Positions 43,135-46,807 of a DNA stretch of 64,000 bases are shown here, piece after piece. The notes beneath the pieces were generated by a model. The model saw only the letters and a program-made list of their open reading frames with translations, did not search any database and had not been told where the DNA came from. The number at the start of each line of letters is the position of its first letter. Position 1 is the first letter of the stretch. The position numbers were made by a program, and so were the translations under genes. Origin of the DNA: Bacteroidota bacterium (lineage in GTDB: Bacteria; Bacteroidota; Rhodothermia; JANXDC01); NCBI GenBank assembly GCA_025998875.1, contig AP024675.1, forward strand, positions 1,399,549 through 1,463,548, given 5' to 3'.

Positions 43135-45783
43135 TTAGCCTCGGCCCCACAGCCGGCGCAAAAGGCCACGACGCCAAATCAGGGTTCCGAGGCCGAACAG
43201 GCCCACCAGAAGCGCCGCCCAGAAGAGTTCGGGGGGAAACGCCCTGCGGGAAGGAAGGACCAGGGGGCCCGCCTGACCGTAAAGCACCAGAGAGGACCAG
43301 AAGAAGGGATGACGGGCTATTTCGGGGGCCTGGCCCAAATAGGCCAGTTGCGCCAGCCGGAGCGCTTCGTCGCGCCCCTTTCCCTGGCGTAGCTCGGCGT
43401 AGAAACGCTCCATGATCCAGGCCACCACGGCGTCCTCTACGGACCATAGGGCGGCGATGAGACTCGCCGCACCGGAGCTGAAAAAGCCATAGGCCAGCGA
43501 CAGCAGGCCCTCGCCGACGTATCCCATCCCGCGAGCCGTGTTGCAGGCGCTCAGTACGACGAGCTCCGCTCCTATGGGATGGGAGAGAAGCTCATGGAGC
43601 TGAACAAATCCGTCGTATCCGGGTTCGGGGCCTAACAGGATGGCCGAGCCAGACGGATCCCGGGGATCAAGCAGGGCATGGGTGGCCAGATGTATCAGGC
43701 TCGTTCGGGGGGCGATCTGCCAGAAGGTGGCCTCCGTAGCGCGGCGGCCCTGGAAGATCCAGACACGGGAAAAGGCGCGCTGCAGGGCGCTCACCTCCCG
43801 ACGCGATTCTGGCAGGGGAGAGAGGGGGGGCATATCCGGACGCTCCGGGAGGCGATCCGGCTGGGCGAAGGCCGCGGCTAGCTTCGCGCGGGGTCGGGAA
43901 TCAGGAGGCGGGGGGAGGGTAAGCAGGCGCAGGGCAGGGCTATAGGATATGGCCCAGCGCTCCAGCGCCCAGCCCACTTTGCTCGAAGCCGAGGGGAGGC
44001 GATAGACCAGCATCCCCAGGGGCAGGGCGTACAACGGAGCATCCAGGACGATGACCAGCCGGGAACGTGTGCTGATTTCCCGCTCGAGGGGGGCCAGCAG
44101 GAGCTGATACAGCCTGTGCAGAGCCTGCAGGGGTATGTCGCGATTCAGGATTTCAGCGGGTGAGCTTGAGCCCGAAAGCCAGGGTATCTCGTGAAGCAGC
44201 TCTTCAAGCCTGCCCCGGGAGGCGGGTATCCCCCGCACCCGGACGGAGGTGCCATCGAGGACGAAGACCCATGCCGTATCGATTTCGATGAAGTAGCTGA
44301 GCGCGATCTGTTTTTGCCGGGCGAGGAGGAGTTGTAAGGTGTCCAGCTTCAGGATAGAGGGCTTCTGCAGGGCAAGCAGGTGCTCACGCCAGCGCGTCCA
44401 TCTCAGCTCCGCCTGGGCGATGGCATCTTCGATCGCCCCGCGCGCCCTTCCTGGCGGGAGCAAGGCGCGGTGGGCGTAGAGCTCGTTGAGCTGTTCACGT
44501 AGCCTCTGCAGGCTATCGAGCGCCTCCACCGATAGGGTTCGGGATTGGGTCCGGCGCAGAAGCAGGTCTTCGGCGTACCGGGCCCGGGTCTGTTCCAGCG
44601 TCTGGAGGGCTTCCTCGATGCGGCTCTGCAGGAGCAGTACACGGACCAGTTCCCGATACGGGTCCTGCCATTGTCCGAAGGCCACCGGTGCCCACCAGGT
44701 GCCGGCCACGGAGGAGCGCCGCTGTTCGGCTAGCCGGCAGGCGGAGCGCAGGGTGATCTCGGCTTCTGAGAGCTCTCCGGCCATGCGATAGGCCTTGCCC
44801 AACAGGGTGAGGGTCCAGAGCGTATAGGTATGGGTGCCTGAACGATAGGCCCATCTGAGGGCCTGTTGCGCATACGCGATGGCCTTGCGGGGGTTGGCCT
44901 GTGCCAGTTCCAGATCACAGAGGCGCGTATAGAGTCGGATGGCCGCCTCGGTCTGCGGGTGGCGTTCCAGTATTTTGAGCCCGCTGTAGAGGGCTTCTCG
45001 GGCTCGATCGGGCAGGCCGAGTTCCAGCCAGAGCCAGCCCAGAAGCTCATAGCGTACCGCGGCACGTCCCCAGTCCCGTGTCTGGATGGCTTCCTGGATC
45101 GCCTTTTCCAGCAGGCTGATGCCGTCCTGGGGCCTGTTGGCTCGGTAAAGAGCGAAGGCGCGCAGGGAAAGCCAGAGGCCCCGGTATTCCAGATGCCGCC
45201 GCTCAGGGTTTAGTCGCCACAGCGAGTCGGCCCTGGCCAGCCAGTAGAAGGCGCGCGTGGTATCGGAGAGCACCAGGTAGACGCTGGCTATGGCCAGCGC
45301 GGTGCGCAGCGTCTCGCCGTGATCCGGAGGATGCAGCTCTTCAAGCAATCGCGTGGCTTCATAGTAATGCCCCAGGGCCTCCGCGTAGCGTTCCAGTTGT
45401 TGCAGCAGATACCCCAGTCGGTAATGCAAGCTATAGCGCAGGCGGGCCCGTTTGCGGGGCTGGGCTTCGTAGAGCTCGAGGGCCCGTTTTGTGACCTCCA
45501 AGGCGGCTTCGAGGAGGCCTAACGCCATGTAGGCCTGTCCTTGAAGCGAGTATCCATGCGCCTGCGCCAGGGCATGATCCAGGAGCCGAGCGCGTTCCAG
45601 GAAACGCTGGCTCTTGAGGAGCGCCTCATGGGGTGCGGAGGTGAGTTGTTCCCGGATGGCCGCATACTCGGCCTGTAGCTCGGCGGGTAACTCGTGCGCG
45701 ATCTCCGGGGGGATCTGTGCCGAGGCGAGGGAAACGATGCATAACAGGGGTAACAGCCCCCCGATCAGCCATCCCCGGCGCAT
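43135..45783 (-). CDS. Exported TPR-CHAT caspase-like peptidase, membrane-anchored
   Basis: An 882-residue protein: signal peptide (MRRGWLIGGLLPLLCIVSLA), about eight TPR-like repeats (30-390), a coiled link, and a C-terminal CHAT peptidase. The catalytic pair is intact: H702 in HLATHALLDP and C747 in VVLSACNTARGMG. A GEGLLSLAYGFFSSGAASL segment completes the fold. A C-terminal helix (about 852-870) with a basic tail suggests anchoring. I use ATG 45783 since the signal peptide starts there; in-frame ATGs at 45795, 45810 and 45858 are possible, but a promoter-like TATCTTTC (45839-45832) would exclude the last. It is divergent from a 46-residue protein. Confidence 0.85.
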   Translation of the reverse strand: MRRGWLIGGLLPLLCIVSLASAQIPPEIAHELPAELQAEYAAIREQLTSAPHEALLKSQRFLERARLLDHALAQAHGYSLQGQAYMALGLLEAALEVTKRALELYEAQPRKRARLRYSLHYRLGYLLQQLERYAEALGHYYEATRLLEELHPPDHGETLRTALAIASVYLVLSDTTRAFYWLARADSLWRLNPERRHLEYRGLWLSLRAFALYRANRPQDGISLLEKAIQEAIQTRDWGRAAVRYELLGWLWLELGLPDRAREALYSGLKILERHPQTEAAIRLYTRLCDLELAQANPRKAIAYAQQALRWAYRSGTHTYTLWTLTLLGKAYRMAGELSEAEITLRSACRLAEQRRSSVAGTWWAPVAFGQWQDPYRELVRVLLLQSRIEEALQTLEQTRARYAEDLLLRRTQSRTLSVEALDSLQRLREQLNELYAHRALLPPGRARGAIEDAIAQAELRWTRWREHLLALQKPSILKLDTLQLLLARQKQIALSYFIEIDTAWVFVLDGTSVRVRGIPASRGRLEELLHEIPWLSGSSSPAEILNRDIPLQALHRLYQLLLAPLEREISTRSRLVIVLDAPLYALPLGMLVYRLPSASSKVGWALERWAISYSPALRLLTLPPPPDSRPRAKLAAAFAQPDRLPERPDMPPLSPLPESRREVSALQRAFSRVWIFQGRRATEATFWQIAPRTSLIHLATHALLDPRDPSGSAILLGPEPGYDGFVQLHELLSHPIGAELVVLSACNTARGMGYVGEGLLSLAYGFFSSGAASLIAALWSVEDAVVAWIMERFYAELRQGKGRDEALRLAQLAYLGQAPEIARHPFFWSSLVLYGQAGPLVLPSRRAFPPELFWAALLVGLFGLGTLIWRRGLLRRLWGRG

Positions 45784-45831
45784 GTGTTGCCACATTGGAG
45801 GTGAAAGCATCTTTTGTACGGCACCCCGATG

Positions 45832-45859
45832 GAAAGATACAGAAGCCTGGCGCATCAAA
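45832..45859 (-). promoter_or_regulatory. Possible promoter of the CHAT gene
   Basis: On the minus strand TTTG (45859-45856) and TATCTTTC (45839-45832) lie 16 bases apart. TATCTTTC is one base from TAnnTTTG but the spacing is short. It lies in the 99-base region shared with the divergent miniprotein gene. Confidence 0.3.
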
Positions 45860-45882
45860 CCAATTCGCTAGGAGGTCGTCCT

Positions 45883-46023
45883 ATGCAGTGGCACTGGTTT
45901 TCTTTCTCCTGGCTGGATGATGAGGAGGATGCGGGAGGAGGCAAGGGCAAAGGAGGCTCTGGGGGAGGGAGCTCGGGGGGTGGAGATCCGGAACCTCCAC
46001 CGCCTCCACCCCCGGACGGTTGA
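45883..46023 (+). CDS. 46-residue Gly/Pro-rich miniprotein with aromatic N-terminus
   Basis: It starts MQWHWFSFSWLDDEED, continues as a Gly/Ser/Lys-rich linker (residues 18-34) and ends with a run of prolines followed by DG. AGGAGG nine bases before ATG is among the strongest ribosome-binding sites in the window, which argues for a real gene. There is no signal peptide. It is divergent from the TPR-CHAT gene and convergent with rsmE, two bases apart. Its composition suits a disordered peptide; a substrate, tag or regulator of the CHAT enzyme is possible but purely positional. No family recognised. Confidence 0.6.
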   Translation: MQWHWFSFSWLDDEEDAGGGKGKGGSGGGSSGGGDPEPPPPPPPDG

Positions 46024-46025
46024 GG

Positions 46026-46766
46026 TTATCCCGCAGCGGCCCACAACAGGGCCGCTGCGGCGGCCACGGCCGCGGTTTCGGTGCGCAGCCGATAGGGGCC
46101 GAGGCTGCAGAGCGCCAGGCCGTGGGCGCGCAGCAGTTCGAGTTCCTGATCGGCAAAGCCGCCCTCGGGTCCGATGAGCACACTTATGGTGGCCCCCTTC
46201 GGCAAAGGGCGGGGCAGGAGGCTGCTGATGGGGGGATATGGGGCTCCGGGCCCGTGGGCGGCCAGGCGCCAGCGGGCCTTATCCTGCTGTAGCCAGTCGG
46301 TAAGTGCTCTGGGAGGGAGCAGTTCGGGAAGCCAGCGGCGACCGCTCTGCTTGAGTGCGGCAATGGCTATGCGTTGCAGTCGATCCAGACGTATCTGATC
46401 GCGTTCGGTTCGACTGGTTCGTATCCATGCGATACGACGCACCCCCAGTTCCGTGGCTTTTTCCACCAGCCAGGCCTGTCGGTCCGGGTGTTTGATCACT
46501 CCCACCACGAGCGTGAGCTCATAGCCGACCTCATCGGGATCATAGACAGCCTCTTCGATCTCTCCCTCGATTTCCAAGCCGCGAAGGTTTCGGAGGCGCA
46601 CGGTGTAAACTCCACCCCGGCCATCGGTTACCTCGATGCGGTCTCCCGGCCGATAGCGAAGTACGTGCATGACGTGGTGCGTCTCCTCGGGGGGAAGACG
46701 AAGTAGCGGAGTATGGATGCGCTCGGGGGGACAGTAGAAGCGGTCCATAGAGTAGAAGCGGTCCAT
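46026..46766 (-). CDS. rsmE: 16S rRNA (uracil-1498-N3)-methyltransferase
   Basis: A 246-residue SPOUT methyltransferase. Signatures: HHVMHVLRYRPGDRIEV at the N-terminal barrel, VEKATELGVRRI, KQSGRRWLPEL, IGPEGGFADQEL and the knot strand LGPYRLRTETAA. It methylates U1498 in 16S rRNA. The start is ambiguous because the first codons are duplicated (MDRFYS then MDRFYC): 46766 and 46748 are both in frame, plus an ATG at 46781. Confidence 0.93.
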   Translation of the reverse strand: MDRFYSMDRFYCPPERIHTPLLRLPPEETHHVMHVLRYRPGDRIEVTDGRGGVYTVRLRNLRGLEIEGEIEEAVYDPDEVGYELTLVVGVIKHPDRQAWLVEKATELGVRRIAWIRTSRTERDQIRLDRLQRIAIAALKQSGRRWLPELLPPRALTDWLQQDKARWRLAAHGPGAPYPPISSLLPRPLPKGATISVLIGPEGGFADQELELLRAHGLALCSLGPYRLRTETAAVAAAAALLWAAAG

Positions 46767-46768
46767 AG
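46733..46768. repeat. Exact 18-base tandem duplication across the rsmE start
   Basis: AGTAGAAGCGGTCCATAG occurs twice in tandem (46733-46750, 46751-46768). The unit includes the rsmE start codon, so two start codons six codons apart are in frame. The length is a multiple of three, keeping both open. Confidence 0.9.
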
Positions 46769-46807
46769 ATCTTATCCGCAATCAGCTGCCAACGGGCCGC
46801 ATCCGGC

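Follow-up and report, generated by a model that had tools for sequence, protein, structure and literature searches.

The locus analyzed here lies in a stretch of 64,000 nt of bacterial DNA (hereafter, the window) and consists of two divergent genes, one encoding a large enzyme and the other a protein of 46 residues, followed by an outer neighbor. The initial annotation had proposed both genes of the pair from reading the DNA, and both were found among the window ORFs at the positions and on the strands given there. The features, in the order of their coordinates, are:

43135..45858, minus strand: gene for an exported TPR-CHAT protease, 907 codons counted from the first possible start (TTG)
43141..43233, minus strand: C-terminal transmembrane helix and basic tail, residues ~876–906, from the helix at 876–906 in the AlphaFold model
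43273..44124, minus strand: CHAT peptidase domain, residues 579–862 (Pfam PF12770, E 1.8e-56)
43543–43545 and 43678–43680, minus strand: predicted catalytic pair, C772 and H727, respectively, from the alignment of CHAT proteins
44461..45684, minus strand: TPR or helical-repeat array, residues ~59–466 (Pfam TPR_12, TPR_1, and TPR_2)
45718..45783, minus strand: signal peptide, a hydrophobic stretch with A-x-A before Q, reaching up to ...IVSLASA and followed by Gln48
45870..45875, plus strand: AGGAGG ribosome-binding site of the small gene, read from the sequence
45883..46023, plus strand: small protein gene, 46 aa, MQWHWFSFSWLDDEEDAGGGKGKGGSGGGSSGGGDPEPPPPPPPDG, with an ATG start and the AGGAGG 7 nt upstream
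46026..46781, minus strand: outer neighbor, rsmE-like RNA methyltransferase, named by eye

Judged by its sequence, the enzyme is a CHAT-family (PF12770) predicted cysteine protease with an intact dyad. The CHAT domain, the only one in the 2.35 Mb genome, scores 192 bits against a curated Pfam cut-off of 24, and both H727 and C772 are invariant in the alignment of CHAT proteins (108 of 108), so that the His/Cys pair is indeed kept, as had been claimed (these residues, numbered from the first TTG, are the H702 and C747 of the initial annotation, numbered from Met26). The true start is more likely to be Met17, Met22, or Met26 (45810, 45795, or 45783) than the first TTG. The TPR array, the signal peptide, and the C-terminal anchor described at the outset were likewise recovered, through the Pfam TPRs, a Q-rule site, and the C-terminal helix of the model. 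The array is also backed by helix pairs in the AlphaFold model (mean pLDDT 83, pTM 0.80) and by matches to TPR structures in the PDB. The end of the signal peptide, ...SLASA before Q, fits the Bacteroidetes Q-rule (PMC5837995), and the corresponding site in the enzyme of the sister species reads ...GPMQA before QVSPD. The C-terminal membrane helix is present in 34 of the 39 proteins of the window's own CHAT clade (clade A). From these features, the enzyme is predicted to be exported to the cell envelope and to face the periplasm. The PADLOC anti-phage profiles matched neither of the two window proteins.

The small ORF opposite the enzyme is, by the pattern of its sequence changes, a genuine coding gene. 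A divergent ORF, MELLWERFDDEDEASGGGKGKGGSGGGSSGGGDPEPPSPPPPDGRV, is kept at the same place in the sister species of the same genus, and over the 29-codon Gly/Pro core the two differ by 14 synonymous codon changes and a single non-synonymous one, the differences at the three codon positions being 1/0/14. The other two forward frames over the core show 0 synonymous and 13 non-synonymous changes. On the antisense strand, the mirroring of Gly and Pro codons leaves one frame with mainly synonymous changes as well (11:2), but no start codon was seen in it. The same third-position excess was observed for related small genes, with differences of 134/114/297 by codon position over 17 pairs. The strength of the ribosome-binding site, which the initial annotation had counted among the highest in the window, was borne out: AGGAGG was seen near an early start in only one of the 111 long stop-to-stop frames of the window, that one being another frame. 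More generally, sites resembling ribosome-binding sites precede 21 of 55 collected small genes, compared with 2.5 expected. In BLAST searches with the small protein, only its own genome and the sister species rose above noise, and the further matches (E 0.02 and worse) were dismissed as low-complexity. The 46-residue protein had no Pfam match, and six of seven small proteins had none in NCBIfam, whereas the seventh matched one model below threshold (E 0.09); the open-access papers searched did not contain the paired small gene either. Thus, the enzyme belongs to a known family, whereas the small gene is covered by neither Pfam nor NCBIfam models.

To quantify the association, we applied one rule to CHAT genes and to control genes: an ORF on the opposite strand, starting with ATG, of 28–80 aa and polar composition, with its 5′ end at most 420 nt upstream or at most 80 nt downstream of the CHAT start. 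The rule was set after examples had been seen and was applied identically to the controls, which were taken from 21 stretches of 20–64 kb; candidates overlapping a long ORF were dropped for control genes and kept for CHAT genes. In clade A, 23 of 39 CHAT genes have a small divergent ORF by the rule (25 of 39 with two added by eye), and in a second group, clade B, 31 of 32 do. The same rule found none beside 32 evaluable genes of other CHAT clades, including copies in the same genomes, and one among 275 control genes. Computed on 54 of 71, the Fisher p-values are 7.6e-47 against the control genes and 1.5e-14 against the other CHATs, values that are too optimistic because the genomes are related. 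The pairing was seen in about 55 genomes of one class, Rhodothermia; 20 CHATs from other classes had no such ORF. Among 75 evaluable CHATs in a genome collection drawn mostly from other phyla, found by an alignment-based scan after a single-protein CHAT query had given no match, the rule was positive only in two Rhodothermales. Roseithermus sacchariphilus, also of the class Rhodothermia, was positive by eye. The initial annotation had asked whether the small protein is conserved beside CHAT genes in relatives, and it is: judged from sequence, the pairing is conserved across the class and in two CHAT clades. Families f8 and f20 and most of f13 have the CHAT gene with no small gene adjoining it, so that the partner is not indispensable.

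Clades A and B differ in the enzyme, as the clade B enzymes (family f4) have no membrane helix. A single inherited CHAT clade for all pairs was rejected by the AU test of an A+B grouping (p 4e-5), based on a quick tree with long branches in play. Either the pairing has two origins or it is old, with losses in the intervening lineages, the small proteins being too short to decide. In several loci of family f4 (L121–L126, also L075, L080, and L081), CHAT genes of the two clades stand in tandem, and a small divergent ORF is found only before the second copy, that of clade B.

Most of the families read first have a small divergent ORF, MKRWRFYLPMSDEEPEGDELAGEAGGDGGDGNDPAPPCGPDHPDYPNC and MMSVWNPARRWMQEQEKDPPGGDGGDNPTHPDDPESREEQQQQ being examples from clade A; clade B provides, among others, MFDFNEEYFSLAMPDPEQTGGDGDDDDTGSVT and MRWDLHNRYVVFSRPDDNGGGDPPPPPPPGGGPGEGGGGIAPTDPKEDG. 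The proteins of the pairs are acidic, rich in Gly, Pro, and Ser, and 28–72 residues long. The 55 collected have little sequence in common and share a bipartite layout, in which the N-terminal 10–18 residues hold nearly all aromatic and most hydrophobic residues and a polar, acidic tail follows. Phe, Trp, and Tyr occupy 111 of 990 positions within the first 18 residues and 3 of 1,234 thereafter. The polar tail is not independent evidence because the detection rule demands it; the aromatic head is not part of the rule, and its aromatic content is just slightly above that of ordinary proteins. Since small proteins of different families share character and not sequence, a fixed recognition motif is not definable. 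The WHW and WFSFSW motifs and the polyproline end that the initial annotation had singled out are peculiar to the window species: the sister protein opens with MELLWERF, and polyproline is missing from most relatives. A signal-peptide-like stretch was found in none of the 55 small proteins, so that the mismatch with the exported enzyme, first remarked on for the window pair, is general. No common core peptide, cysteine, or cleavage motif of the AgrD type was found in the 55 either, and Cys occurs in only 4 of them. The AlphaFold model of the window protein (mean pLDDT 59, pTM 0.19, from a 4-row alignment) is compatible with disorder, and the protein is probably unfolded. In family f5 (L015, L017, and L018, clearest in L018), near-repeats of a Gly-Asn-Thr/Ser-Pro-Pro-Pro unit stand behind an acidic, lysine-rich head, which suggests that this small protein grew by internal duplication.

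The genes beyond the pair vary. The outer neighbor is recF in most of clade A, rsmE in the window genus, and, by eye, probably ftsY in clade B (family f4); these names were partly assigned by eye. In clade A genomes without the small gene, the gap between CHAT and recF is 72–211 nt, compared with 285–516 nt in three loci with it, and eight genomes with no CHAT match have no such small ORF before recF. Terminator-like hairpins lie directly behind the small gene in L006, L009, and L018. Given the gap sizes, the hairpins, and the enrichment of sites resembling ribosome-binding sites, the small gene looks like a transcription unit of its own that travels with CHAT. Promoter-like sites of the Bacteroidota type were found in 9 of 55 shared gaps, with 2.3 expected. 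We considered a leader peptide of recF and rejected it, as rsmE adjoins the small gene in the window genus and the hairpins separate it from recF in those three loci. In the window, a perfect 12-bp inverted repeat, ccgcagcggccc/gggccgctgcgg (46031–46060), follows the small gene immediately and lies within the 3′ end of the rsmE-like gene; it has no T-run after it. At four other loci (L102, L111, L116, and L117), the CHAT gene lies behind a lipoprotein-like ORF with a Pro-rich stretch, which is a candidate for another, exported partner.

Taken together, the results provide good support for the conclusion that the two genes belong together. The initial annotation had regarded the pair as a candidate two-part system from position, and this idea gained ground, as the two genes are found together repeatedly within the class, in both CHAT clades, and next to different outer neighbors. 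What the two products do jointly is more tentative. We see about an even chance that the genes form one module, in which a periplasm-facing TPR-CHAT cysteine protease or sensor would be served by its own small cognate ligand or substrate, encoded on the other side of a divergent promoter region common to both genes. The aromatic/basic N-terminal 10–18 residues of the partner would make the specific contact, and the acidic Gly/Pro tail would be a soluble, extended handle that may lie in the TPR groove or in the CHAT active site and would switch, or report on, the enzyme. By analogy, we infer that the enzyme and the small protein may touch. Because the partner carries no export signal, such contact would need leaderless export or leakage via a damaged inner membrane, and the roles of substrate, ligand, or alarm peptide are put forward as hypotheses, given a small protein with no signal peptide and an exported enzyme. 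Electrostatic docking of an acidic partner was discarded as a general rule, since the clade B enzymes are themselves acidic (median net charge −19.5).

The main rival is a pair linked by shared regulation without direct contact, in which the small protein would act in the cytosol on something else, such as the membrane surface or a stress, and one divergent control region would switch both genes on. The divergent layout and the promoter-like sites in the shared gap fit this reading, as do the hairpin terminators, which make the small gene its own unit, and the small protein that stays without a signal peptide while the enzyme is exported. However, the small gene accompanies two CHAT clades that form no single group (AU p 4e-5), and no others. 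This pattern implicates the enzyme, not a promoter, and we hold shared regulation to be rather unlikely. An origin of the ORF as a spurious low-complexity frame in a GC-rich gap is close to refuted: the tail is of low complexity and such frames readily open in GC-rich DNA, but the third-position excess over 17 pairs, the 14:1 ratio in favor of synonymous changes in the core, and the enrichment of sites resembling ribosome-binding sites all speak for coding, and the small ORF is also present beside the second CHAT clade in AT-richer DNA, compared with 1 of 275 control genes.

The small protein might also be a peptide-signal or bacteriocin-like precursor that leaves the cell without a Sec signal and is trimmed by the envelope CHAT protease, its product acting on neighboring cells or as a density signal. 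Its length and layout, with an aromatic/basic head and an acidic tail, recall AgrD, the precursor cut by a membrane cysteine protease; the small protein diverges fast between species, and a dedicated envelope protease adjoins it. Nevertheless, a precursor appears quite improbable, as neither a core peptide nor a cysteine or cleavage motif is conserved among the small proteins, CHAT is not a relative of AgrB, and no transporter gene was noticed in passing beside the pair. Alternatively, the pair could be a damage alarm, in which the small protein would stay in the cytosol as a danger signal and would meet the envelope TPR-CHAT receptor or protease only upon a breach of the inner membrane, by phage lysis, a toxin, or a pore, and would trigger a proteolytic response. 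On this reading, the lack of an export signal in the partner of an exported enzyme would make sense; we nonetheless consider the alarm very unlikely.

CHAT proteases are related to caspases and separase. Most of those in bacteria, and the exported ones in particular, have no substrate or ligand known to us. A small gene that stands beside two separate exported TPR-CHAT clades, despite changes of the outer neighbors, is a concrete candidate partner, and with the pair, a single peptide and a single enzyme would be enough to test what an envelope CHAT protease recognizes. The pairing also brings to light a set of small genes outside the Pfam and NCBIfam models that is visible only because these genes adjoin the enzyme.

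Among solved structures, the best Foldseek match of the enzyme model is DdvA (PDB 8rw5 and 8rot, E 3.2e-15), followed by Csx29 (8eey_B, E 2.4e-14) and separase (E 3e-12). Separase combines helical repeats with a cysteine protease of the CHAT clan and is held by securin, a partly disordered protein. The window enzyme resembles it by fold, and securin, a eukaryotic inhibitor, is much larger than the window small protein. In AgrD-like precursors, an amphipathic leader and a charged tail flank a conserved core peptide containing Cys or Ser, a feature that the small proteins of the pairs do not share.

Csx29, the TPR-CHAT protein of the type III-E CRISPR Craspase, cuts Csx30, the product of another gene at the same locus (PMC10028731). 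It has in common with the window enzyme the TPR array, the CHAT peptidase with its His/Cys pair, and the fold. However, Csx29 acts inside the cell, where it is switched by Cas7-11 and target RNA, whereas the window enzyme is exported, and the signal peptide alone argues against its being a cytosolic Csx29. Its substrate Csx30 exceeds the disordered-looking partner of 46 residues in size and inhibits a sigma factor. Craspase also has Cas7-11 and a CRISPR array, none of which was recognized among the neighboring window ORFs read by eye.

DdvA is a transmembrane anti-sigma factor with a TPR-CHAT-like part. The likeness is confined to the fold, and the global TM-score is low (0.25), possibly owing to long flexible arrays that fail to superpose. 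The N-terminal cytosolic anti-sigma domain of the DdvA type is absent from the window enzyme, in which the TPRs follow the signal peptide and no Pfam anti-sigma family was found. In other classes (L101, L103, L106, L107, L115, and L119), a TPR-CHAT gene is immediately preceded by an ECF sigma gene and a one-helix, anti-sigma-like membrane ORF with a TPR tail; the sigma gene was called by Pfam in L101, and the rest of these operons was read by eye. Their TPR-CHAT proteins are related to the window enzyme, exported, and equipped with a C-terminal helix. Unlike the window pair, they are encoded co-directionally with the sigma factor and without a small divergent gene, and the operons look like a split version of the DdvA-like arrangement.
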